A program made the position numbers and the translations under genes. The notes below the pieces were generated by a model. The model made no database searches. It was not told where the DNA came from and was given only the letters and a program-made list of their open reading frames with translations. From assembly GCA_964036665.1 (NCBI GenBank), contig OZ038528.1, forward strand, positions 7,570,501 through 7,634,500: 64,000 nt of DNA. Reading direction: 5' to 3'. Position 1 is the first letter of the stretch; each line of letters begins with the position of its first letter. The stretch is from Gordius sp. MW1. Its lineage: Eukaryota > Nematomorpha > Gordioida > Gordea > Gordiidae. Below are positions 19,190 through 57,984 of this stretch, one piece after another.

Positions 19190-22050
19190 AGTAATATGTC
19201 TTCATCTTCCTCTTTTAGAAGAGGCCAGGAATCCAAAAAAGATTTGAAATTAAATTTTGCAATTAAGATAGCTATTGATTGTTTCAATAAAAATGCGGGG
19301 GAATGTTTGGAGGGAGGGGATCGCCTGCCTATTTCTTTAAATAAAGCCAACGCCATTTTTCCATAGGGATCCTGAACAGGAGGAAACTATTGGGATAAAA
19401 ATATTGGAGTCCAAAAAGGCCTTATATTTTTGAAGCTCTTCAGCGAGGGCCATGGGGTCATAATTAAGATTAGAGGGGGCAAATAGGTCTATGCATGTAA
19501 AATCCCACTTTAAAAAGAGACCATTTTCCCATGGGACTAACGAGGAACCGTCAGGACGCATTCGACCTTCAAGAGCAGGATCCGAAGGTTCAAGTATGGA
19601 GGAAATATGGGCCTTTCTAAGGGCTGATTGGATAATAGAATTAATTTTAGAGTGTCGCAAGTGTCTAAATTTATTTAGTCTGCAGTGTAACGGGTGGCGT
19701 GCTTCTTCATCCACTGGCAGGTTGCAATTTTTACAGGCATATGCCTTGGTGTATTTTATTCCCAGGCGTAGCGCTATATTGTAGGATAGCTCGCAATCCT
19801 CTAACATCATATTGGAGAACTTGCTAGGATACGCCTCTAGCCATTCATGTCCAGATTTATCAAACACCAAAGATCTAAGGTTGTAATGTTGTTTGGTATC
19901 GCAGCTCGAAAGGAGATAAGCAACGAAGCGCGAATGCATCCCAATTCTTTTGATTTGGTGTTTGTGGTGGTGAGCTTTCTGGTAGAACATTTAAATTCCA
20001 AAGGGATAGGGCCTGTATAAATGTTTCATCAAGGGATATGAGATTAGTTTGGCTACGATGGATTTTGAGGATAAGTGGGAGGATATAAATAAGGCCAAGG
20101 ATAAGGAGCTTGATGAACGAATTCCCAGACCCCCAGATTTTGTTGGTAATGTGGCTTGTAGCCAGGTGTTAGTATCGAATGATAAGTTCAGGGTGGATTC
20201 AATGACAAATTTTATGTGGGTTTCGAAATTATGTAAAATATGTGTATGCAAAAATGCGCTTGTGGATCGGAAGCAAAATAATATTTTGGCTATATTAAAG
20301 TAGTTTTTCAATATGTAAAATGCGTGATGGGCGGGCATAAGCTTAAAAATTTCATTTTTGCATTTTAAATTTTTAAGGTTATCGTCGAGATAACTTCTTA
20401 AGCACTCAGGACCGCCTATTGGAGAACCTAGTAAAAATACCTCGTCCTTCTCAAGGCGTAGAAAAGATCCAAAGGACGGGTGGATGTCGGTTGTGCTGTC
20501 AAAATAAATTTCGCATTTTGTCGCGCTTAAAGATAGGTTAAGTTTTATGTAGTATTCATTAATGATGTTAAGAGCTTTGATTAGCTCTTCCGTAATGCCT
20601 GATAGAGTGGCATCGTCGAGATACCATACGTTTAATTTTTAATTGCATTTTTCGTTGATTTCATCTATTAATGGTTTGATGGCCATACAAAATAAGGGGG
20701 GGGGCCAAGGGGGTCCCCCTGTTGAATGCCCTCCGCTAAATTAATTAAATAATGCCCGAATTTTAGAATAGAGGGTGTCCCTTAACTTAAAAGGATATAA
20801 TTAGCATATTTAGGAGAAGTCTCGATAAAAGTTTTATAAAGGAATCTCTGTTTAAGTTATTAAAAGCGTTTAAAAAATCTAATTTTAAAAAAGACTCATT
20901 GGGTAATAGATTTTCGAGGGTCAATCTTGCGACGTGTGTTGCTATTTCACACCCTCCTTTGACCCCGAAGCCTAGCTGGTGAGGCATTAGCGATAGGGTT
21001 AAATTTGGTTTAATTGCTTTGCAAATTATTTTAGAGATGATTCTTCTAAAAACTCCGCCGATAGCGATCGGTCTCAATGTTTTGTTTGGTTTTTTGATAG
21101 CAAGTAACTTTGCAACAAAGACTATCGGTCGTACTTCCCGGGGAATGTTGCCATTAATGATTAGATTGCAAAAATTTGTTAGGGCAGTGAGTAAAACTGG
21201 AGAGTTAATGTTTTCAACTTTTATGAGATCTTGAAGATAGATTGGTTTAATGCCATCCAAACCTGCAGCAGAATCCATGGGAAAAGAATGGATAGCTTCA
21301 CTTATGTCTGAGGACTTTAAAATTATGCTGGATGGTGTAAGGGGGAAGGTATATTGTGAGTAATGTTTGGGGTGTTTTGCTAAGAGTTGTTGATATGACT
21401 CCTGACTAGGGGTTACAATTGGATTATTATCCTCCAAAAGTCTCATAGCCCCTTTGATGTTAAAGAAATTAATTTTCCTTGAGATCCTATTTGCCGTTTG
21501 TTTTGGAGTAAAAGGCTTTAATTCTCTCTCTGAATGTGTGTAAGGCTCAAGGGTATCATTTACATCTAAATTTAAAATATCCTTTTCAATTTTCTGTGAT
21601 AAATTAGACTCTTTAGTTTGAGATGGAGCCAAAATATGATAAAAAAATTTGATAAGTTTTTCCAATGCTGTGATGTTGTGTGGGTCACTAATAATGCTGT
21701 TAAGCAAATTTATCAAAAATTGTTGCATGCAAGGTCTGGCTCCTCTTGGAATTCTTGAAATTGTGGGGGGGAAGTCATGTGCCAAAAGGACTTTACTCCA
21801 AGTTGAATCCAGAGGCTCATCGCTGTAATAAACACTATTAGGAGTAGTTGGGAATGTATTAGAGTTAGGTGTAATATCAATATTATTATTAGATTCAATT
21901 TCTAATGCTGTAGGAGGACATATTATATTTGGGGGGGGGCCAGCTTACGAGATGAAGGGCATTTAGCCAATAATGGGCCATGGTGGACAAAACATTTTTT
22001 TTGTTTAAACAAATGTTTCTCTTACATGTAGGGCATAGAGATTTAAGTGC
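19190..22050 (-). pseudogene. Non-LTR retrotransposon with zinc finger, RT and C-terminal endonuclease-like domain
   Basis: On the minus strand, in order: a zinc-finger start CPTCKRNICLNKKN (about 22,035); a long segment 21,785-20,787 with RT blocks LRPIAIGGVFRRIISKII, MPHQLGFGVKGGCEIA and KLDFLNAF; GIQQGDPLGPP (about 20,720) and the catalytic WYLDDAT (about 20,620); a thumb-like stretch MPAHHAFYILK (20,338); then 19,990-19,337 with a CKNC...H...C knuckle and RPDG...WDFTCIDLFAPSN, resembling the RPD...D core of restriction-like endonucleases. Several frame changes and stops interrupt it. Finger, RT and RLE order suggests an R2-like plan; clade assignment is inference. A second copy lies at 49,860-51,125. 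Confidence 0.8.
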
Positions 22051-29870: not shown

Positions 29871-32461
29871 TGCTGTAGCTCGCCTTTTCCCATACTCAAA
29901 TTAAGCCTTTTCCCATACTCAAATTAAGCCTTTTCCCATACTCAAATTAACTCATTAGTGCTTTTCCTTTTTAGTTAATACTCCCACACTCTCACCCATT
30001 AGTTATAATATCATTAGTTACTTTCCCACACTCTCACCATGATTTGAGTTCGCATTCATTATTGTAATTAAGTACATTATTATTCCCACGCTTTTTCCTA
30101 TATATTACCAAATTATCGCATAAATGCATTCTTGGATTTTTTCCCTTTCTTACGCATTTTATTACGCTATAAAATATGGCGCGGTCGAATTCCAATATAC
30201 AATTCCATCAATATAATCCTACCGATAGTTTTGACTTATACTTGTCACAATTCAACCATTTTCACAATGTTATCGGTTGCGATAAAAAATCCTTATTTCT
30301 ATCCGTTATAGGTACCGAAAATTTCGAATTACTTACAAACCTTATTGCCCCCCAGGACCCTGCAAACCTTCCTTTTGAAGAATTATGTTTAGCCCTAAAA
30401 AACTTTTATTCTCCCAAATTAAACCCAATCGTACAACGCTACAAATTTAATAAGTTGTCCCAAATGGATGATGAAACCATCGATGCATTTACAGCAAGAT
30501 TAAAGGGGGTGGCAATCCATTGCGAATTCGGATCGAACCTTGAAAGTAGCCTCCGTGATAGGTTTGTAGCTGGATTAAAGAAAACAAAGATTGTTGAACG
30601 CCTTTTAGGCATAGAAAATTTGACATGGCAAATTGCGCTGGACACCTCTCGCGCCATGGAAAGGGCAGAACTACAATCGCAATTATTGAATCATTCGGAA
30701 ACAATTCATTTGGTAAAACCCAGGTCCTTAAATTATTGTTATTCATGCGGGGGGAATCATAATCGGGCCATGTGTAAATTTCGAACTGCAGTTTGTTTTA
30801 AATGTCAAAAAAAGGGACACATTGGAAAAATATGCAAGAGCGAATGCAGTGTTACGCATCATCAAGTGAATTATTTGAAGGGATATTCGTCATTTCCCAC
30901 TTATACATTAAAGGTAAATGATCTAGATGTTAATTTTGAAATTGATACAGGGTCATCAGTGACAATGGTGAATGGAGGAAACATTGTAGTACGGAACGTT
31001 TCTCCACTCAAAACTATCTTAAAGAGCTATAATGGTACAACCATACCAACGAAAGGGAAAACCGAGGTGACAGTATCTGAAAATGGCAAACGATTTAAAT
31101 TGCCGTTAATCGTATCAGAAGGCCATGGCCACAACATATTAGGACGCGATTGGTTGCAACATTTTCCCCATATCCTAATTCAACTGGCACATAAATGGAT
31201 TAAAGATGATACCACTCCCTCTTCAATCAATATGGTTAATTGTTACAATAATTTGAATGATATTACTAACAAATATTCTTCGTTATTTGATAATAAATCC
31301 ACCGGAGTTATTGATTTTTATACAACACTTAAACTTAAACCCGAATCCTCTCCTAAATTTTTTCGGCCCAGACCAATCCCTTATTTTATTAAAGAAAAAG
31401 TGGATAAGGAGTTAGACCGACTAGTTAATGAAGGGGTTTTGAAATCTGTAAAATATGCCGACTATGCAGCGCCCATTGTTACTGTTCTTAAAAAAAATGG
31501 GGGATTACGAATTTGTGGAGATTTCCGAAATTTGAATAATAATCTAGTTGTTGAAAAATACCCTCTTCCCCGAATCCAAGACTTGTTTTCTAAATTAGCA
31601 GGTTTTAGATATTTCTCCATATTAGACCTAAAGGAAGCTTATTATCAAATTAAAATTACTGAAAAATCACAAAATATTTTAACAATTAATACCCACAGAG
31701 GACTTTTTCAATATACTCGACTTCCATTCGGAATTGCTTCTGCCCCAGCGATATTTCAGCGCTTCATAGACTCATTATTTAGGAACATTAATGGTGTAGT
31801 ATGTTATTTAGACGACATTATCGTGTCTGGGAAAACAATTGAGGATCACAATAAAAATCTCGAAATAGTGTTTAAAATATTGGATGAGGCTAATATAAAA
31901 TTAAAACGAGAAAAATGTAATTTTTTACAAAAATCAATTGAATATCTTGGACATATAATAAACGAGGAAGGAATTCACACAACTAACAAAAATACTAAGG
32001 CAATTATAAATGCTCCTGACCCTACATCAATTAAAGAATTACAATCTTTCTTAGGCATGGCTACCTATTATGCTAAGTTTATACAAAATTTTTCGACTCT
32101 AGCACAACCGTTGTATAAATTATTAAGAAAATCAGTGAAATGGAATTGGACACAAGATTGTATAAATGCCATTAATAAAATAAAGAAAAAAATAATTAAT
32201 GCTCCTGTTTTAGTTCATTTTAATCCTCAATTACCATTGCTACTCTCCACCGATGCTTCAGCGGAAGGTATCGGCGCCGTTTTATCACATGAAATTAAGG
32301 GGTACGAGCATCCCATTTCTTTTGCCTCGCGCACACTCAACGCTGCGGAGAGAAATTACAGCCAAATTGAAAAAGAAGCGTTAGCCATTATATTTGCATT
32401 TCAAAAATTTCGAGAATACATTTATGGCCAAACCTTCACTCTAGTTTATTACGCTATAAAA
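29871..32461 (+). mobile_element. Ty3/gypsy LTR retrotransposon fossil, incomplete copy
   Basis: A 304-bp 5' LTR (29,871-30,174) is followed by gag with a CCHC knuckle, an aspartic protease (DTGSS), reverse transcriptase (YLDD) and the start of RNase H. Integrase and nearly all of the 3' LTR are absent. GTTAT flanks both ends (29,866-29,870; 32,462-32,466), so the target duplication survives. The copy is broken, with about one major loss. Near-identity to the copy at 54,047 shows a recent insertion. Confidence 0.92.
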
Positions 32462-32599
32462 GTTATTATTGTACTTAGAAAAAGCATTTAAATTATTTTT
32501 TATGACCTAATTCCGTTTGTTATTTTTCTTCCAAGGACGCATTTTGCAAAAGCTCCTTTTAATTTTTCTGAATATGCCAACACGGGGCATTGTTTGAAC

Positions 32600-32690
32600 T
32601 AGAGAAAAGATTATGTCTTAACCCGATAGGTACCACTAACGGTTCGGCTGAACCAATTTATATAAAAAAATTTTTGGGGCATCTATTAGC
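32600..32690 (-). repeat. Conserved motif shared with 58,878-58,960
   Basis: Read on the minus strand, GATGCCCCAAAAA, AATTGGTT, GCCGAAC and GGTACCTATC recur in the same order at both sites. It directly follows the exon array of the FLYWCH gene. Function unknown; it may be the end of a repeat. Confidence 0.5.
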
Positions 32691-33079
32691 ACATTTAATT
32701 ACTTTCACTATTAACATTGGTGGAATTACATAAAGATATAATTGGGTTTGAAGCAACAACTACTGTATAAAGTTAAAATATTAGCACATTTAATTACTTT
32801 CACTATTAACATTGGTGGAATTACATAAAGATATAATTGGGTTTGAAGCAACAATTACTTTATAAGGTTAAAATATTAGCACATTTAATTACTTTCACTA
32901 TTAACACTGGTGGAATTACATAAAGATATAATTGGGTTTGAAGCAACAACTACTGTATAAAGTTAAAATGTTAGCACATTTAATTACTTTCACTATTAGC
33001 ACTGGTGGAATTACATAAAGATATAATTGGGTTTGAAGCAACAACTACTGTATAAAGTTAAAATATTAGCATTAATTAA
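32685..33079 (-). repeat. Four 95-bp tandem units, each an exon plus an intron
   Basis: Period is exactly 95 bp (starts 32,685, 32,780, 32,875, 32,970; the next partial unit begins at 33,065). On the minus strand each unit has acceptor TTTATACAG (or close), a 60-nt open stretch, and donor AAAGTAATTAAATG. Exon and intron parts are equally conserved between units, which points to recent duplication. Confidence 0.85.
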
Positions 33080-35915
33080 TTTCACTATTTGTATAATCAC
33101 TCAGAGTCATCATTGAATTAGTACTAATAACTACTAAAAAATGTAATAATATTACTACCTTGAATCACCTGAGACATTAGAGGGCAAACATTGTCTACTA
33201 CTATTCAGCCTAGAACGCAAACTTTCTATCCTACTAATATAAAACTCGGGCCTTCGGCCCTCGTGGGAAGGGGGAGAAGGGAAGGGGAGTAGGGGAAGGG
33301 AAGAGGGGAAGGGGGAACTCTTCTATACTCCGTATAAACGTAGCATATTTGCTATGCAATTTATGGGCGAGAAAGGTGGGAAGGGGCGAGAATGCCTATA
33401 GGGGGTATTAGATGCAAAATAATTAGTTAATTAGTTATAGGCCCTTGTAGGGGAGGACATAGGGTAATTATCAATGTTAACCAATTCAAAAACGAAAAAA
33501 AATTTCGATTTATTTGGCCAATGGTCATTTTTTTATTGGTCAGTAGCCAGCGGACGGTCAAAAATTCATATTATCTTTGGTATTAACATGAACAAATATT
33601 AATTTAATTTAAAAAAATTAAAAAAAAAATTTGTCCCCTCCCTGACTTGAACCCCACACCTCCAGTTCACAAGCCGGCGCTATAACCACTATACCATGGT
33701 GGCTTTAAAATAGTAGAAGTTATTATGTTATTTATATAGATAATGAAATAATAAAGTTGTGTTTTATGTTTAGAAAATCAATATATTTCGTCGGTCAGTA
33801 GCCAGCGGACGGTCAAAAAGTCATATTATCAATGGTATTAACAAAAACAAAATATTAATTTAATGTAAAAAAAAAAAATTAAAAAAAAAGTTTTTTTTTA
33901 GTTTTAAAAAAGGGCTAAATTCTTAAACTACCAGCCCGATTCGCTCGAAACTTTACCCGTAGGTGCCCAGGGCGGCCGGGGGTAAAATAACCTTTTCATA
34001 TTCCTAAAATACCTTTTCATTTTAAAAATATCGGACATTTCCCTGCCACACATGCGGTGTAATATCTATGACACATAGAAAAATTTTACTAATTATATAA
34101 ACTTACGCGCGCCATCTAATAAAGTACAATTCGTGTTTGAGTTTAATAGTAGATTCAATTTAATTAGAAATAACGGGCTATGATTATACCTTTGAAGGAG
34201 GTTTCGAATTTTGTGTTAGTTTCTATCGATATATTTTATCGTAAATTAGAATCTAATACCTATATTATTTTTTTAAATATTACTTTTTAGGTTTTCTATG
34301 AAATCACAATCTAATTAAATGAAATATATTAACTTAATAAAAAAATATATAAGCATTTATAAGGTTAAAAATATATATTACATAGTTGGCTGTCTGTTAG
34401 ACCATCTATAATAAATTTTTAGGTTATATATAAAATTTGGCCAATGGTCATTTTTTTTCATTGGTAAGCAGCCAGGACACGGTAAAAGTGGATATAAATT
34501 CATAAGTCAAAAAAAACGAAAAAAAAAATTTTCGAATCACATTTTGGCCAATGGTCATTTTTTCCATTGGTCAGCAGCCAGGACACGGTAAAAGTGGATA
34601 TAAACTTATGATAGTCAAAAAAAAAACTAAAAAAAATTTTCGAATCACATTTTGGCCAATGGTCATTTTTTTCCATTGGTCAGCAGCCAGGACACGGTAA
34701 AAGTGGATATAAATTCATAATAGTCAAAAAAAACTAAAAAAAAATTTTCGAATTACATTTTGGCCAATGGTCATTTTTTTCCATTGGTCAGCAGCCAGGA
34801 CACGGTAAAAGTGGATATAAATTCATAATAGTCAAAAAAAAACGAGAAAAAAAAATTTCGAATCACATTTTGGCCAATGGTAATTTTTTTCCATTGGTCA
34901 GCAGCCAACGGACGGCCAAAAAGTCATAATAGCAATGGTAGTAACAGGAACAATCATAATAGTCAAAAAAAAACGAAAAAATAAACTCGGATTCACATTT
35001 TGGCCAATGGTCATTTTTTCATTGGTCAGCAGCCAGCGGACGGCCAAAAAGTCTTATTATCAATGATAGTAACAAGAACAATCATAAGAGTCAAAAAAAA
35101 CTCCGGGATTCTAACCCCAAAACTAGTTAAATTGCATAGCAATTACCAAAATTTAAATATAGATATACTTATGCATTAATTTAACGTAGCAATTAAAACC
35201 CGACCCCGCCCGAAAGCGAGGGAGATAGAGATGAGGGGTGGGGCACCTCTTGATAGAGATGAGGGGTGGGGCACCTCTTTCTCATGCATTAATTTAAAAA
35301 AGCGATAACCTAATATACCCAATGCAAATAGATAGGGAGGTAACGGACAACGGACGGACGGACGGACGGACACCAAAAAACGAGCCCATAAATTGCATAG
35401 CAATTAAAAAAATAAGAGACATATATATTACAGATATTACCTGGGATAAATTGTTTGGAGTGGGAGGCAAATTTAGCACCTCTTCACTTGAGTTTGTACT
35501 TGTAACCCCTATAAAAAATCATAAAAAAGCACTATAAATTACTTTGACTATACGTAGGATCACATGACATTATAGAATTTGTGGCAGTAACTACTTTATG
35601 GTTATAAATTTTATAATGGCACTTTAAATTACTTTCACTATTAACATTTGTGGACACATCCATCATAAAATTAGTACCATCAACTCCATTATCAGAAAGA
35701 TACATATTAGGTCTTGGGCCTGCTATATATATAAACACTTATGCAAAAAATTTACTTATATGTGGAATGTTTAGATGCTCCTTTGAATACATGTTTCCCT
35801 CAAGAATTGCTCTGCCTGAGCAACGATAATTGCGGCATTTCAAGTATATTTGACCATATTTCCCTTCCTTATATTTGGTGTAGTAGTAATCGGCATGAAA
35901 ATATATAGGCTTCAT
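32703..35915 (-). CDS. FLYWCH-finger gene candidate with tandemly amplified exon-intron units
   Basis: Proposed minus-strand exons: E1 35,915-35,756 (FLYWCH-type finger: LKCRNYRCSGRA with C-x5-C, then H-x3-PH); E2 35,722-35,633; E3 35,593-35,543; E4 35,508-35,441; E5 near 33,230-33,169; E6 33,133-33,080; then four near-identical 60-nt exons at 33,047-32,988, 32,952-32,893, 32,857-32,798 and 32,762-32,703. Introns after E1, E2 and E3 are 33, 39 and 34 nt; those between the 60-nt exons are 35 nt. Most junctions are phase 1, so units can be gained or lost without shifting the frame. E2, E3, E4 and E6 share (V)TxTNS or STNVNSE with the 20-residue repeat, so all look like copies of one module. The E4-E5 intron holds a 2.2-kb element, the E4/E5 phases do not match, and the donor after E6 is altered, so it may be partly decayed. 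FLYWCH fingers bind DNA and occur in host regulators and MULE transposons; which applies is unknown. Confidence 0.5.
33244..35407 (-). mobile_element. Tandem-repeat Helitron/Helentron-like element, copy B
   Basis: The same start (ACTCGGGCCTTCGGCCCTCG), the CCAAT-hairpin array (34,430-35,085, six units, 108-bp type first) and the same end (GAGCCCATAAATTGC, ATAGCAATTAA) as copy A. It lies in the intron between E4 and E5 of the FLYWCH gene; without it that intron would be about 44 nt. Positions 33,900-34,430 are an extra AT-rich insert absent from copy A. Confidence 0.75.
33632..33703 (-). other. tRNA-derived sequence with A- and B-box
   Basis: On the minus strand GCCACCATGGTATAGTGGTT (A-box TGGTATAGTGG) is followed by CCGG-CTTGTGAA-CTGG, an anticodon-like arm showing GTG, and a B-box GGTTCAAGTCA. 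The acceptor and T stems do not pair well, so this is a tRNA pseudogene or SINE head inside the repeat element, not a working tRNA. Confidence 0.5.
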
Positions 35916-36059
35916 TCTTTGCGTCAACGTATACACGCAGATTTAAATTGACAAATTTGAAATTGTGAGAAATGGTGAAGGTTTGGTGGCAATTGGTGAA
36001 GTTATTATTTTGAAACTTTACCTTTTTAATTGAAACGGCGCTAGGCATATAAGCTTTGC

Positions 36060-36398
36060 CCAGTGTAACCTTTAGGTGACGTTCAGCTTTAAGGCAAATT
36101 TTAAAGTCTTTAAATTACTCATAAATTTTAAATTACTATCAAAATGTTGCAAAAATTATAGAGATTTTAAATATGTAAATTAAGTTGCAAAAACTTATTG
36201 TTGAGTGTACATATATATATTGAATATAAGAAGGTAGGTCGGAATTGCGATTTTTACGATTTTTGAACGAGTATAATTCAAGAACCAATGAAGAAGAAGT
36301 AATAAAATTGTATCAGATAATTTATCCCAATACAATTTTTTAAATTTAATTTAAAAAATGTTTTTATCTTCAGAAGTGTCACCTAAAGGTTACACTGG
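36060..36398. mobile_element. MITE, CCAGTGTAACC family, copy 1
   Basis: Perfect 21-bp inverted ends CCAGTGTAACCTTTAGGTGA(C) / (G)TCACCTAAAGGTTACACTGG. The interior is related to 60,680-61,027. Upstream bases (ATAAGCTTTGC) and downstream CGGGTT are also shared with that copy, so the true repeat may be longer. Confidence 0.7.
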
Positions 36399-36854
36399 TA
36401 CCTGTCGGGTTTTAAACGGGTTATTATTTCTTGCAACAAGCGACTCGCCATTCACCTTTCACTAGCAGCACTTGTAGCTGCTAAATCATTTATAATTCTA
36501 ACTTTATATAAAGTTAATTTTATATAACTAAAATTGGTGAAGGGGACATGGAACTTAAGAAAAATTCTATTTACGATCTCTTGACTTTTTATAACTATAG
36601 AAATAGATGGCGGACCTTTTACTCAAAAATTGAAAATGGTACCAAGTTTCCGAAGAGTTCACCACTTAACATCATGTTTATTTTTTGTAAACAATGTTTA
36701 TAAATAAATTTTTTAAATAATGCTATTATATATAATTTTAATTGATATCGAAATGTATAATTAATTAACATCTTTCGTTCATTTATAATTAAAATACTTT
36801 ATTTAAAGTTATATAAAAAAGGATCACATGGGTAAAATACATTGATAAATAAAA
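36399..36854. other. Intergenic repeat-like sequence
   Basis: No gene. Positions 36,540-36,680 (GATCTCTTGACT, ATGGCGGAC, ACCAAGTTT in order) recur, diverged, at about 60,275-60,390. Confidence 0.4.
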
Positions 36855-38096
36855 ACTCGGGCCTTCGGCCCTCGTGGGAAGGGGAGGAAGGGAAGGGGGG
36901 AAGGGAAGGGGGACCGAAACTCATCTATACCCCGTATAAAAGTAGCATATTTGCTATGCAATTTATGGGCGAGAATAGGGGGTATTAAATGCAAAATGAT
37001 TAGCTAATTATTTATACAAATTTTCCATCACTTTGGCCAGTGATGATCTTTTCTAATGGTTAGCAGACTTAAATAACTAGCCTATAATTATAATCAAGAA
37101 AAAATCGATTTTAATTTCACTTTGGCCAATGGTAATTTTTTTCATTGGTCAGTAGCCAGCGTACGGCCAAAAAGTCATATTATCAATGTTATCAACAAGA
37201 ACAATATATTAATTAAATAATAAAAAATAAAAAAATTTGCCCTCACCGGGGTTCGAACCCACATCAGTAGAAGCATAGGCTTTTGTAGGGCACAGGGACC
37301 CATACCAGTAGAGGCATAAGCCCTCGTAGGGAAGGGCATAGGGTAATTATCAATGTTAACCTAATATACCAATTCAAGAACGAAAAAAAAAAATTTGAAA
37401 TCACACTTTGGCCAATGGTCAATTTTTTCCATTGCTCAGCAGCAAGCGGACGGCCAAAAAGCCATATTATCAATGGTATTAACAAAAACAATATATTAAT
37501 TTGAAAAAAAAACGAAAAAAAAATTACGATTTATACTTTTGCCAATGGTCATTTTTTTCATTGGTCAGTAGCCAGCGGACGGCCAAAAAGTCATATTATC
37601 AATGGTATTAACAAGAACAATATATTAATTTAAATTAAAAAAAATAAAAATTTTGCCCTCTCCGGGATTCAAACCAGCATATAAGAATTTGCCCTTGCCG
37701 GGATTCGAACTCACATCAGTAAAGGCATAGGCTTTTGTAGGAGGGGGGGGGGGCACAGGACCCATATCAGTAGAGGCATAGGCCCTTTTAGGGGAGGGCA
37801 TAGGGTAATTATCAATGTTAACCTAATATACCAATTCAAAAACGAAAAAAAAAATTCGATTTATACTTTGGCCAATGGTCATTTTTTTCATTGGTCAGTA
37901 GCCAGCGGACGGCCAAAAAGTTATATTGTCAATGGTATTAACAAGAACAAAATATTAATTTAATTTAAAAAAATAAATAAAAAATTTGTCCTCTCCGGGG
38001 ATTGAACCAGCAAGTCAGAAGAAAGACGGTATAAGAACGTTGGAGGACGGACGGACGGACAACAAAAAGCGAGCCCATAAATTGCATTTCAATTAA
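36855..38096 (-). mobile_element. Tandem-repeat Helitron/Helentron-like element, copy C
   Basis: Same hairpin start and GGACGG...GAGCCCATAAATTGC end as copies A and B. It carries four degenerate CCAAT-hairpin units separated by tRNA-like T-arm blocks (GGGGTTCGAACCC at 37,247; variants at 37,665-37,710). No coding capacity. Confidence 0.7.
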
Positions 38097-38185
38097 AAAT
38101 ATTTAGATCAGCACACCGCATTTTTGGGACAAGAGGAACCTTTGTATACGACATCATCCGGACCCTTATATATACTTTAAGCTGC

Positions 38186-38310
38186 AACGGGCCTGTTTAG
38201 GTCAGTTTTACAAGCCCGGGCCCGGTTCGGCCCCGTCAACATTTTATACTATAGGCCCGGGCCCGACCAGCTAATTTGATTCAAAGGAGCCCGGCCCGGG
38301 TCCGTACAAA
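38186..38310. repeat. hAT-like GGCCCGGGCC scrap
   Basis: CAAGCCCGGGCCCGG and GGCCCGGGCCCG motifs mark a terminus of a CGGGCC-type hAT with the outer end eroded. Confidence 0.4.
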
Positions 38311-38479
38311 TTTTTTAGATTTTAATTTTACCGAAAGAATAAACAACTTATAAGTGTTAAAAAAGTTAATTATGTAAAAATAATTATCAATAATTTCTGG
38401 TCAGACGAGTTCTTCTATCTTTTATATGGGGACCTACGGGAAAAAATTTTTTTTCCACTAGTGACACTGAAGTTTGAAT

Positions 38480-39278
38480 TAGAGACCTGCACGGGTGACC
38501 TGAAATCCCACCGGGTAGTGTTTGAGTTACAAAATTAAAAATACTTTCGGGTTGAGTTGAAAATTTTTAAATACATCTGCATCCGGTCGGGTTGGATTTA
38601 AAGTGTCGGGTCAGAGGATATGAAACTTACATTGCAAAATAATAGGGACACATCCTTTAAATTAATGCTATTATGTATAATATTCTAAATATAGAAATGT
38701 ATAATTAAAGATCATTCATTCAGTTAATTAATTTCATTCTGTTTATTTAAAACTGATTGTTTTTATTTGGATGCAAATCTAATCTGTACTCGTGAAAGGT
38801 AAAATATATCAGCAAAACAATATTTTTAAATTGTATTTATATAGTGTGAACTGTGAAGTGGTGGTTCATTATTAAATTAAATTACATAAATATGTATTCG
38901 TAAATCAAATCAGAATAAAAGTTGATTTTAATTCATGAAATGTTACATTTGCATAACTATATATTTCAAATTAATAGCGGCCCGATATTGTAGATGGTAT
39001 CATATCTGTACATCACTTATATAAATCATTCAAATAAATTTAGTAATCAAAATCTAAGGTATCATTAGTTGCATAAATCGTACTTTAATTTGTCGATTAA
39101 ATTTTACACACCGATATTTTTCCTACTCTCGCGTCGGATATCAAAATTTGAAACGCGCTCGGGAGGGATTCGGCTAAAAAAATTAAACGCTTTCGGGTTG
39201 GGTGCGGGTTGAAAATTAAAAAAAAAATTTGGGTCAGGTTGGCTTCGGGTTTAAAAAAAATGACTTTGTAGTTCTCTA
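38480..39278. mobile_element. hAT element, GGGTCG family, copy 2, 799 bp
   Basis: Ends TAGAGACCTGCACGGG and TTTGTAGTTCTCTA. The interior is collinear with the flanks of the nested insertions in 9,263-13,023, so it preserves the empty sites for the TTAC element and the small MITE. Flanking 8-mers GTTTGAAT/GTTGTGAT match at 5 of 8. No transposase. Confidence 0.75.
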
Positions 39279-39530
39279 GTTGTGATACATAATTCCACCA
39301 AATAGATTAAACCCTTATTTAAAGTTAAAATGCTATGAATAATGTTACTTGGCTTCTTTGCTTTTCCACCATTTTAAATTTTAGTATTGATAAAAAAGCA
39401 GTGATATTTTATAAAGAAAACTTGAATAAAGTATGATTATGAGATTTGTTTTTAAATTTTTTAGTGACTATATATTTATAATCTTACATAACATCCAATT
39501 ATTTCACTCTTCTATTGCCAGAGGGTATAA

Positions 39531-39655
39531 ATGGGGAGTCAAGGCTGGACATCTGCCCCACTCCAAATCTAAAAAGATCTAAAAAAAATTTTGCCCAACC
39601 TAAACCATTACTTGCCCCCTCTAATTTGAATCCTGGCTACGCCCATGGGATTATT
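39531..39655. repeat. Fragment of the GGGCGTAGCCAGG MITE family
   Basis: The right end CCTGGCTACGCCCATGGG and the C-rich interior match 45,646-45,814. The left end is degraded. Confidence 0.5.
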
Positions 39656-39874
39656 TGACTTAAAATGCGCGTTGAGATATTGATGAATGATTAAATTTAG
39701 ATGGAAATATACTATTTAACTTTCCTTGATAATTTAATAAACATCGAATAATACCTTAAAACATTATTAAGTAATTTGTTTATACTAAATCTAATTGATT
39801 TTGTAACGGGCTTTTAACGGTCCTTACGTATATCTAGGCCGGCCGCCCCCAGCCCGTTAGGTTATATCAAGGCC

Positions 39875-40330
39875 TAGTGCTTCGATCTCTCTCCGTCTCG
39901 AAGCAAAATCTCGTCTCGTTTCTGTCCAAAAAATCTAGGTCTCGTTTCGACGAGAATTCTCGACTTGTCTCGACATTTTAAAAAATTGTTATACTAATTA
40001 AAAATTTCTTTTGATTTATCAAAATTATTAAAAAGTGATAAATTGTGAAAAATCCAAAGTGAAATATTTTATTTTATGAAAAAACTTTAATACACAAACT
40101 TGATAAAAATTTAATGCGACATGTCATTGACGATATTATCATATTCTGTATGTCAGATATAAATACACTTAGAAATTTATATGTTTACCTTTATTTGACT
40201 TGGTTACAAATTTGGGCTAAATGAGACCCTTTATTAACACTGGCTGAAGCTTATAGCTCAAAGTAGATCCTTTTTAAACTAATTTAAGGTATTAAATAAA
40301 AATACTAAGAAACGTTTGCGAGAAGATAAG
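39875..40330 (-). mobile_element. CGAGACGAG-family hAT, right-end part, reversed
   Basis: Starts TAGTGCTTCGATCTCTCTCC with TCTCGTCTCG arrays to 39,965. 39,980-40,330 is the reverse of the interior near 15,900-16,180. Positions 43,680-43,990 look like more of this same reversed copy beyond later insertions. Its other end is missing. Confidence 0.55.
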
Positions 40331-54046: not shown

Positions 54047-54350
54047 TGCTGTAGCTCGCCTTTTCCCATACTCAAATTAAGCCTTTTCCCATACTCAAAT
54101 TAAGCCTTTTCCCATACTCAAATTAACTCATTAGTGCTTTTCCTTTTTAGTTAATACTCCCACACTCTCACCCATTAGTTATAATATCATTAGTTACTTT
54201 CCCACACTCTCACCATGATTTGAGTTCGCATTCATTATTGTAATTAAGTACATTATTATTCCCACGCTTTTTCCTATATATTACCAAATTATCGCATAAA
54301 TGCATTCTTGGATTTTTTCCCTTTCTTACGCATTTTATTACGCTATAAAA
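54047..54350 (+). repeat. 5' LTR of the Ty3/gypsy fossil
   Basis: Begins TGCTGTAGCTCGCC, contains three copies of CCTTTTCCCATACTCAAATT, and ends CGCTATAAAA. Identical by eye to 57,681-57,984 and to 29,871-30,174. Confidence 0.95.
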
Positions 54351-57300
54351 TATGGCGCGGTCGAATTCCAATATACAATTCCATCAATATAATCCTACCG
54401 ATAGTTTTGACTTATACTTGTCACAATTCAACCATTTTCACAATGTTATCGGTTGCGATAAAAAATCCTTATTTCTATCCGTTATAGGTACCGAAAATTT
54501 CGAATTACTTACAAACCTTATTGCCCCCCAGGACCCTGCAAACCTTCCTTTTGAAGAATTATGTTTAGCCCTAAAAAACTTTTATTCTCCCAAATTAAAC
54601 CCAATCGTACAACGCTACAAATTTAATAAGTTGTCCCAAATGGATGATGAAACCATCGATGCATTTACAGCAAGATTAAAGGGGGTGGCAATCCATTGCG
54701 AATTCGGATCGAACCTTGAAAGTAGCCTCCGTGATAGGTTTGTAGCTGGATTAAAGAAAACAAAGATTGTTGAACGCCTTTTAGGCATAGAAAATTTGAC
54801 ATGGCAAATTGCGCTGGACACCTCTCGCGCCATGGAAAGGGCAGAACTACAATCGCAATTATTGAATCATTCGGAAACAATTCATTTGGTAAAACCCAGG
54901 TCCTTAAATTATTGTTATTCATGCGGGGGGAATCATAATCGGGCCATGTGTAAATTTCGAACTGCAGTTTGTTTTAAATGTCAAAAAAAGGGACACATTG
55001 GAAAAATATGCAAGAGCGAATGCAGTGTTACGCATCATCAAGTGAATTATTTGAAGGGATATTCGTCATTTCCCACTTATACATTAAAGGTAAATGATCT
55101 AGATGTTAATTTTGAAATTGATACAGGGTCATCAGTGACAATGGTGAATGGAGGAAACATTGTAGTACGGAACGTTTCTCCACTCAAAACTATCTTAAAG
55201 AGCTATAATGGTACAACCATACCAACGAAAGGGAAAACCGAGGTGACAGTATCTGAAAATGGCAAACGATTTAAATTGCCGTTAATCGTATCAGAAGGCC
55301 ATGGCCACAACATATTAGGACGCGATTGGTTGCAACATTTTCCCCATATCCTAATTCAACTGGCACATAAATGGATTAAAGATGATACCACTCCCTCTTC
55401 AATCAATATGGTTAATTGCTACAATAATTTGAATGATATTACTAACAAATATTCTTCGTTATTTGATAATAAATCCACCGGAGTTATTGATTTTTATACA
55501 ACACTTAAACTTAAACCCGAATCCTCTCCTAAATTTTTTCGGCCCAGACCAATCCCTTATTTTATTAAAGAAAAAGTGGATAAGGAGTTAGACCGACTAG
55601 TTAATGAAGGGGTTTTGAAATCTGTAAAATATGCCGACTATGCAGCGCCCATTGTTACTGTTCTTAAAAAAAATGGGGGATTACGAATTTGTGGAGATTT
55701 CCGAAATTTGAATAATAATCTAGTTGTTGAAAAATACCCTCTTCCCCGTACGAATTTGTGGAGATTTCCGAAATTTGAATAATAATCTAGTTGTTGAAAA
55801 ATACCCTCTTCCCCGAATCCAAGACTTGTTTTCTAAATTAGCAGGTTTTAGATATTTCTCCATATTAGACCTAAAGGAAGCTTATTATCAAATTAAAATT
55901 ACTGAAAAATCACAAAATATTTTAACAATTAATACCCACAGAGGACTTTTTCAATATACTCGACTTCCATTCGGAATTGCTTCTGCCCCAGCGATATTTC
56001 AGCGCTTCATAGACTCATTATTTAGGAACATTAATGGTGTAGTATGTTATTTAGACGACATTATCGTGTCTGGGAAAACAATTGAGGATCACAATAAAAA
56101 TCTCGAAATAGTGTTTAAAATATTGGATGAGGCTAATATAAAATTAAAACGAGAAAAATGTAATTTTTTACAAAAATCAATTGAATATCTTGGACATATA
56201 ATAAACGAGGAAGGAATTCACACAACTAACAAAAATACTAAGGCAATTATAAATGCTCCTGACCCTACATCAATTAAAGAATTACAATCTTTCTTAGGCA
56301 TGGCTACCTATTATGCTAAGTTTATACAAAATTTTTCGACTCTAGCACAACCGTTGTATAAATTATTAAGAAAATCAGTGAAATGGAATTGGACACAAGA
56401 TTGTATAAATGCCATTAATAAAATAAAGAAAAAAATAATTAATGCTCCTGTTTTAGTTCATTTTAATCCTCAATTACCATTGCTACTCTCCACCGATGCT
56501 TCAGCGGAAGGTATCGGCGCCGTTTTATCACATGAAATTAAGGGGTACGAGCATCCCATTTCTTTTGCCTCGCGCACACTCAACGCTGCGGAGAGAAATT
56601 ACAGCCAAATTGAAAAAGAAGCGTTAGCCATTATATTTGCATTTCAAAAATTTCGAGAATACATTTATGGCCAAACCTTCACTCTAGTAACAGACCACAA
56701 ACCACTATTATCAATATTTAATCAAACCAAAAACGTACCTCAAGCTGTATCGGCGCGACTTCAACGATGGGCTTTATTTACAACACCGTACCAATTTAAT
56801 ATTAGATATAAGAATACCAAAGAAAACGCTCGTGCAGATATGCTCTCAAGGTTAGCTGTTCCGGACGAAACAATATCTCAAGAGGGAGATATTTGTGCTA
56901 TTTACGAAGAAACATTTATTCAAGTCCTTACCACCCTCGTTCTAATGGAGAAGCCGAACGTTTTATTCGAACCTTTAAAAATTTCCTATATAAGTCGCAA
57001 AATTTTAAAAATGATAAATTATTTAATTTCTTGTTTTCTTACAGGAATACTATCCATCCTACAACTGGTTTTACCCCAGCAGATTTGTTAATCAAAATTC
57101 ACCCCTTAAGTTTGTTTAGTTTTTTAAAACCACACATGATGGTAGGGGAACTTGAAGAAGATAATTTTATTAGAAGAAAATTTTTAATCGGTGACAAAGT
57201 CTGGGTGAGAGATTTTACAAGTAGTGACAAATTGTGGTGCAAAGGAGTCGTTCGTAAAATACTTGGTCCCGTTTCTTACGTAATCGAAACAGAAGAAGGT

Positions 57301-57680
57301 ATGATGTGGAAAAGACATGGCGACCACATAAGGAAACGATCGGATACAATCATGGAAGAAGACTTGCCTACACAGGTGACAACGCCCTGCCCCTCTCCTT
57401 CTACAGACTTGGCAAATGATTCACCATTTGACGATTACAGCAAGGAGCAAGCTAGTTTTTCACGTACACCACCTATGACGCCCTCCATTAATACTCTTCC
57501 ATCTACGACCCTTCCTTTTAACTCGCCACCATCCACATCTTCGACGATACCACTTACGTCCCCGCCCCGTTTGCCGATCGATCCTGACGTAGTTGGACTA
57601 CCTTCACCTACACTACCACGACGGTCGACCCGAATTAAATACCCGATGCAAAGATACGGAATCGATTAAGGGGAAAGAAA

Positions 57681-57984
57681 TGCTGTAGCTCGCCTTTTCC
57701 CATACTCAAATTAAGCCTTTTCCCATACTCAAATTAAGCCTTTTCCCATACTCAAATTAACTCATTAGTGCTTTTCCTTTTTAGTTAATACTCCCACACT
57801 CTCACCCATTAGTTATAATATCATTAGTTACTTTCCCACACTCTCACCATGATTTGAGTTCGCATTCATTATTGTAATTAAGTACATTATTATTCCCACG
57901 CTTTTTCCTATATATTACCAAATTATCGCATAAATGCATTCTTGGATTTTTTCCCTTTCTTACGCATTTTATTACGCTATAAAA
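57681..57984 (+). repeat. 3' LTR of the Ty3/gypsy fossil
   Basis: Same length and sequence as the 5' LTR, followed immediately by the CATGC target duplication. Confidence 0.95.

Follow-up and report, generated by a model that had tools for sequence, protein, structure and literature searches.

To what kind of gene do four near-identical 95-bp units belong, each of which reads like a tiny exon followed by an even smaller intron? The units stand in tandem in a window of 64,000 nucleotides from the hairworm Gordius sp. MW1 (contig OZ038528.1, here C2:7570501-7634500), whose genome comprises 212 Mb in 12 contigs (C1-C12). The original prediction, made from the letters of the window, saw in them the growing tail of a FLYWCH-finger gene. 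Judged by its sequence, the feature is the decayed, 3′-truncated 5′ part of a multi-copy Mutator-like element (MULE), a DNA transposon; in fuller copies of this transposon, the array most likely forms a stretchable link between two fingers ahead of the transposase. The idea of exon-plus-intron duplication was right in kind and is partly supported, and its setting and likely role differ from those first proposed.

The tandem repeat was placed at 32684-33089 by Tandem Repeats Finder (period 95, 4.3 copies, 95% match, zero indels). Read on the minus strand, the unit consists of a 60-nt open stretch and a 35-nt spacer and occurs four times across 33047-32703. In all four units the open stretch is directly preceded by AG and directly followed by GTAATT, and the phase-1 frame is open (VVASNPIISLCNSTSANSE and near variants), with 1 and 4 stops in the remaining two frames of each unit. 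Repeat finder and frame reading confirmed the predicted four units with their 60-nt open stretches and preceding AG. A finger exon is located about 2.7 kb upstream of the array, and smaller exon-like stretches lie in between.

In the genome the 95-bp unit has 35 matches, distributed over 10 places and six contigs (C1, C2, C3, C5, C7 and C8). Of 381 candidates for the finger peptide, 150 were scored, so that the 147 genomic matches obtained are a minimum; identity reached 90% or more in 21 of them. The 5′ boundary (CGTTTCAATTC...) is the same, to within two mismatches, in sixteen distinct copies, including the one in the window, and their 14-bp flanks differ; two cousin copies match this boundary with six mismatches and a deletion. 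Two short copies at C4:8.2 Mb and C5:16.69 Mb (2341 and 2373 bp) are bordered by exact 8-bp target-site duplications (ACTAAATA and GTGGGAGG, respectively). Their terminal inverted repeats are degenerate, being alike at 30 of 40 and 29 of 40 positions. Moreover, the MULE transposase domain (PF10551) was detected 0.8-2.0 kb 3′ of arrays at C1:19705782, C8:4375577 and C8:4358388, and at C3:10604712 with 26.9 bits, below the cut-off. Thus PF10551, terminal inverted repeats and a target-site duplication (about 8-11 bp expected), the marks of a MULE, are all found in other copies of the family. With the unit at 10 places, the finger at 147 or more and transposon ends present, a single host gene was rejected; it is the dispersal of unit and finger across the genome that speaks against it. 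The family is very probably a Phantom-like MULE, whose fuller copies carry a first finger, a linker of micro-exons, a second finger and the MULE domain.

The full order of parts was read from the copy at C1:19.7 Mb (L038), which was followed throughout. Removal of 13 predicted GT-AG introns of 29-67 nt leaves a product of 625 aa up to a frame break, composed of finger 1, small phase-1 exons forming a linker of 197 aa (41% Ser, Thr and Asn), finger 2 and the MULE domain. The MULE domain scored 39 bits (1.2e-9; cut-off 27.6), and the two FLYWCH stretches of the predicted product 22.6 bits, slightly below the cut-off of 23.6. Finger 2 of another copy (L065) reached 39.4 bits. Finger 2 followed by the MULE domain is the arrangement of the Phantom clade, to which finger 1 is additional. 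As the nearest database protein (P0001, 464 aa; 30% identity over 374 aa) begins at finger 2, finger 1 and the linker look like an N-terminal addition to the transposase. Removal of a 36-nt intron from the transposase part of L038 joins EVKGCLFHYAQA, which then aligns without gaps to ARIMGCLFHFTQC of P0001, an uninterrupted relative. Since removal of this intron restores the alignment, splicing of short introns is supported independently of the array, and very short introns are plausible in Gordius sp. MW1.

Finger 1 is FLYWCH-like, with a His spacing of x4. Its Pfam FLYWCH scores were 16.2 (the window finger alone), 19.7 and 24.1 bits against a cut-off of 23.6. Four residues (C32, C37, H54 and H59) are invariant in 14 of 14 aligned sequences; outside this alignment, L052 has one changed Cys and L060 one changed His. 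A protein search with the window finger alone gave no matches. Likewise, the predicted fold of finger 1 (best model with a predicted local distance difference test score, pLDDT, of 82, the other four 60-66) matched no PDB entry at E 0.001; the first hits, at E 0.049, were WRKY domains. WRKY and FLYWCH are related folds. For 27 of the 39 best finger-2 matches (39 best of 150 listed), including all of the best 16, a finger-1 match lies at most 6 kb upstream in the same orientation, at distances of 88 to 5835 bp. Of these pairings, 24 came from the 87 strongest of at least 147 finger-1 matches and three from the other 60. Two further copies, L056 and L057 (C8:0.63 Mb and C8:19.5 Mb), look chimeric from their sequences: finger 1 is 97% like that of the subfamily of L038 (F) and the DNA is 95% identical to F until the second exon, whereas their finger-2 matches are only 57% identical to the query, compared with 85-87% in F copies.

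To read the linker as a series of exons, we defined a chain as a path that starts at the donor of finger 1, ends at the acceptor of finger 2 and is made up of stop-free phase-1 exons of 42-160 nt and GT-AG introns of 28-70 nt. Such a chain exists in the first four linkers examined, one each from subfamilies F (L038; 9 exons, 630 of 1046 nt), G (L066; 8 exons, 714 of 1082 nt), I (L065; 13 exons, 777 of 1287 nt) and J (L071; 6 exons, 423 of 674 nt). None of 200 dinucleotide shuffles of each linker yielded a chain, and phases 0 and 2 as well as the reverse strand failed. The best chain may deviate from the true exons, as F received one 141-nt exon where the model built by hand has two with an intron. 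The test was extended to 12 copies in which both anchors could be set, a group without L054 and L059, whose finger 2 could not be located. Eight of the 12 passed (L031, L036, L037, L038 and L040 of F, L065, L066 and L071), representing four of five subfamilies. No chain was found in 100 shuffles of each copy, and none of the 12 gave a chain in phase 0 or 2 or on the reverse strand. When the intron limit was raised to 100 nt, 11 of 12 passed, the longest introns of subfamily H measuring 94-97 nt; L067, with a stop in a unit, still failed. A variant letting the last exon enter finger 2 was passed by seven of 12 copies and failed by L066, L055-L057 and L067.

The units themselves point in the same direction. 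Among 85 units scored, whose cores were chosen by hand in the expected frame and which are not independent of each other, the exon part is a multiple of 3 in 82 and open in the expected frame in 83 (11 and 5 in the other frames), with AG directly before it in 74 and GT directly after it in 79. The 91- and 155-bp arrays together hold 18 exon parts, every one of a length divisible by 3 (one with a stop, two without GT), and their introns vary from 33 to 35 and from 36 to 40 nt, respectively. Chain test and unit scoring together bear out the symmetric phase-1 junctions that had been predicted.

Different subfamilies have amplified different units, all behind finger 1: 117/118-bp and 92-95-bp units in F, 81-84-bp and 98-bp units in H, 91-bp units in I, 155-157-bp units in G, 86-bp units in J and 78/84-bp units in L064. 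Besides the window there are 29 distinct finger-1 loci; the stretch examined at each contains an array in 16 and none in 13. L032 and L034 have 95-bp units and no finger match. Five H copies, which share 95-97% finger identity with the F query, possess 9, 3, 6, 6 and 8 of the 98-bp units, and L054 and L055 have one unit each that is not a multiple of 3. In L059, six of eight units carry both T50C and A59C, and T50C is absent from all 60-nt units of the other four H copies. In L054-L057 the first unit is one variant and the count differs inside the array. The shared variants of L059 and the constancy of the first unit support local copying of exon and intron together, and the number of units varies between close copies, as expected from the claim that exon and tiny intron are duplicated as one. 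In L066 (C8:26.465 Mb) and L067 (C1:14.689 Mb) the unit is a double exon of two halves of about 60 nt, the pair being repeated four times; the intron between the halves seems to have been lost.

Selection differs along the predicted protein. The ratio of nonsynonymous to synonymous substitution rates (dN/dS) of finger 1 was 0.11-0.28 in all 10 pairs of five subfamilies (L038, L066, L065, L064 and L071), with some dS values saturated and bootstrap upper limits of 0.31-0.69; by this measure finger 1 is under purifying selection. Finger 2 gave 0.11-0.27 in three pairs, from which L066, because of a frame break in finger 2, and L064, whose finger 2 lies outside the stretch examined, were excluded. 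Linker exons showed 0.48-0.57 (E5, three pairs) and 0.39 (E8, one pair), all with wide intervals. For the array units of L066 the ratio of nonsynonymous to synonymous differences (pN/pS) was 0.41 (n=4, interval 0.09-1.8). The simplest reading is that in the linker the frame matters and the residues matter little.

Based on these results we propose a transposase with an added N-terminal part, in which finger 1 would be followed by a long Ser/Thr/Asn-rich linker spelled by tiny phase-1 exons, then by the ordinary FLYWCH finger 2 and the MULE catalytic domain. The exon-plus-intron units of the linker would duplicate and collapse in tandem. As long as the introns are spliced out, a unit could be added or dropped with an effect on the length of the linker only, because each exon is symmetric in phase 1. 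Both fingers may bind DNA or partners, and the linker between them would serve as a tether that is little constrained in length and sequence. The arrays would be free to turn over because selection retains only the frame. We infer the splicing itself, the fusion of finger 1 and transposase in one protein and the role as a tether.

Several observations weigh against this reading. The product of L038 ends in a frame break near its C-terminus, and this copy has no matching 8-bp duplication and departs from both short copies roughly 20 bp ahead of the 3′ ends of these two. The chain test depends on the intron limit: at 45 nt only J among the first four linkers passes, at 70 nt four of the 12 copies fail (L055-L057, which carry 98-bp arrays, and L067), and the limit of 100 nt was chosen after the failure at 70 nt had been seen. 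At 100 nt, one of 100 shuffles passed for L040 and for L071, and none for the rest. Furthermore, shuffling breaks the tandem structure, which the phase and reverse-strand controls preserve. Damaged units occur: three of 85 are not multiples of 3, two contain a stop and six lack the GT. The amino acids of the units show no clear constraint (pN/pS 1.49, interval 0.80-3.4, in L065; 1.54, with an open interval, in F), and the stop-free state of the units in L065 is not significant on its own in neutral simulations (P 0.18 and 0.36). Finally, the finger-2 exon has its own ATG at the usual start of a transposase.

This last point leads to the strongest rival, a less probable but real possibility, according to which finger 1 and the micro-exon array give a separate regulatory product, such as a small repressor that binds DNA, with translation of the transposase beginning at the ATG of the finger-2 exon. 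This exon begins with CAATG in L038, L066 and L065 and with CAACTATG in L071, near the N-terminus of P0001, and six deletion copies without transposase in their matched parts (L046, L047, L049, L050, L051 and L053) retain finger 1 at 97-100%; in three others (L061-L063) the finger end is broken (83%). However, no stop terminates finger 1 and linker before the last donor in L038, and in copies passing the chain test the phase-1 frame continues into finger 2.

Another rival, an improbable one, takes the arrays for ordinary minisatellites within non-coding transposon sequence and the open frame as incidental. Minisatellite-bearing relatives of MULEs are known (described in part of PMC6446971), and both the lack of clear constraint on the unit amino acids and the non-significant stop test of L065 would agree with such an origin. 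In contrast, complete chains occur only in phase 1 of the coding strand, exon length stays divisible by 3 throughout the 91- and 155-bp arrays whereas intron length varies, and finger 1 is under purifying selection. On these three grounds a minisatellite without coding role was rejected.

The single-protein model with a stretchable linker describes the fuller copies; the copy in the window has decayed, as its parts show when compared with those of L038 and other copies:

36037, minus strand: 5′ end of the transposon copy (CGTTTCAATT...), the boundary common to 16 distinct copies; the upstream flank is unlike that of the other copies
35756-35930, minus strand: E1, finger 1 (FLYWCH-like, C-x4-C ... 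H-x4-H), with ACG for the family ATG and a 6-nt in-frame deletion
35633-35722, minus strand: E1b fused to E2, 90 nt; the intron present between them in L038 is gone
35543-35593, minus strand: E3, 51 nt, phase 1, by comparison with L038
35441-35508, minus strand: E4, 68 nt, out of frame, 4 nt shorter than in L036, L037 and L038 (72 nt in L038)
33245-35406, no strand assigned: foreign repeat-rich insert of about 2.2 kb within the E4-E5 intron
33169-33230, minus strand: E5 remnant, its acceptor side altered at the edge of the insert, with stops in the expected frame
33080-33130, minus strand: E6, 51 nt, without GT donor (TTAATT, compared with GTAATT in L038, the sole other copy matched)
32988-33047, minus strand: exon part of array unit 1 (95-bp repeat)
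32893-32952, minus strand: exon part of array unit 2 (95-bp repeat)
32798-32857, minus strand: exon part of array unit 3 (95-bp repeat)
32703-32762, minus strand: exon part of array unit 4 (95-bp repeat)
32484-32683, no strand assigned: junction into other dispersed repeats, whose sequence begins at 32683 (42 matches genome-wide, including itself)

The ACG in the finger exon is followed five codons downstream by a new in-frame ATG, and the six missing bases leave the frame intact. At the site of the insert, the matched parts are separated by 28 bp in L031 and adjoin in L036 and L037. Finger 2 and the transposase are missing, as the window contains no match of at least 80 bp to the 3′ part of L038. 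The predicted upstream exons E2, E3, E4 and E6 do exist as exon stretches, and beyond chance: they recur in other copies, whose exon chain outperforms shuffled, wrong-phase and reverse-strand controls. What did not hold is the length of E4, which is not a multiple of 3, and the donor of E6. With these two defects the window copy would be unable to splice in frame from E4 through E6 into the array. A host-encoded, fast-evolving gene with a variable tail, perhaps derived from the transposon, is highly improbable: the window copy retains an open finger and four intact units, but its start, E4 frame, E5 acceptor and E6 donor are changed, it carries a foreign insert and is truncated into another repeat, and the family is dispersed and has transposon ends. 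The variable-length tail on a working host gene thus gave way to a truncated, decayed copy of a dispersed transposon.

The surroundings of this copy are rich in other repeats. At 36060-36398, 22 bp upstream of the transposon copy, lies a 339-bp element whose 21-bp terminal inverted repeats (CCAGTGTAACCTTTAGGTGAC) are perfect; a relative of the element (87%) is present in L036. Two closely alike copies resembling long terminal repeat (LTR) retrotransposons occupy 29882-32491 and 54058-57760 and have a 23-bp triple repeat and near-identical reading frames in common; the first encodes reverse transcriptase and RNase H, and its end adjoins the array. The window also contains a Helitron helicase-like reading frame on the minus strand at 1764-2405 (PF14214, 1.2e-48) and a reverse transcriptase fragment at 20787-21785 (PF00078, 28.6 bits, slightly below the cut-off of 29.6). 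An Rfam search of 30000-40000 gave no matches, and neither did a search for the nematode spliced leader 1 (SL1) RNA, which is uninformative because the control genomes likewise gave none. The COX1 reading frame on the mitochondrial-looking contig C12 has 97% identity to Gordius sp. VVA-2019 and 92% to Gordionus alpestris, which places the genome among gordiid hairworms. COX1-like pieces (24 matches in all) were also found on C1, C3, C4, C5 and C8, and their occurrence at several places suggests that mitochondrial DNA is present in the nucleus in numerous copies.

Among host genes, those built from numerous tiny symmetric exons are known oddities. Here, such exons belong to a transposon whose many copies have reached different stages, and gain and loss of units can therefore be counted between near-identical copies within one genome. 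If the model is true, the transposase would have two DNA-binding fingers on a tether of variable length, and the effect of tether length on transposition would be directly testable. A bolder and rather doubtful extension is that this MULE clade acts as a mobile generator of micro-exon arrays. At least five subfamilies have amplified different units at one place between the fingers, by a local duplication that would need both symmetric exons and tiny self-contained introns; the clade could hand ready-made arrays to host genes, which would provide a mechanistic origin of multi-micro-exon genes elsewhere.

A keyword search of the open-access literature returned, among the matches listed, no report of micro-exon arrays inside a transposon. 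Aphid bicycle genes, which are host effector genes, consist of arrays of tiny symmetric exons. Their likeness to the hairworm family is architectural only. Schistosome micro-exon genes (MEGs) also have many tiny exons; according to PMC10526429, they belong to the host, encode secreted proteins and have long introns of up to 5 kbp. In contrast, L038 has 13 predicted introns of 29-67 nt in a transposon gene and does not combine short exons with long introns. The parallel to secreted families drawn by the original prediction is thus unsupported beyond architecture, and a fast-evolving secreted family was rejected, as the micro-exon array belongs to a transposon gene.

The closest known systems are Phantom-type MULEs. 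According to the accessible parts of PMC3169594 and PMC6446971, these resemble the hairworm family in having a FLYWCH finger followed by the MULE domain, and introns; target duplications of the group measure 8-10 bp, and Tm1-A of root-knot nematodes has 7 exons, 496 aa and 9-bp target duplications. The same parts of these accounts do not mention an extra N-terminal finger or a micro-exon linker. Rehavkus and aphid Phantom elements are, like the hairworm family, MULE-like elements with tandem repeats, and their repeat sits C-terminally, before the 3′ terminal inverted repeat, or after the transposase reading frame (PMC6446971, in part). In the hairworm family, in contrast, the repeat separates two fingers and can be read as units of exon plus intron, and compared with Phantom-type MULEs the family adds an N-terminal finger (H-x4-H) and a linker of tandem phase-1 micro-exons.

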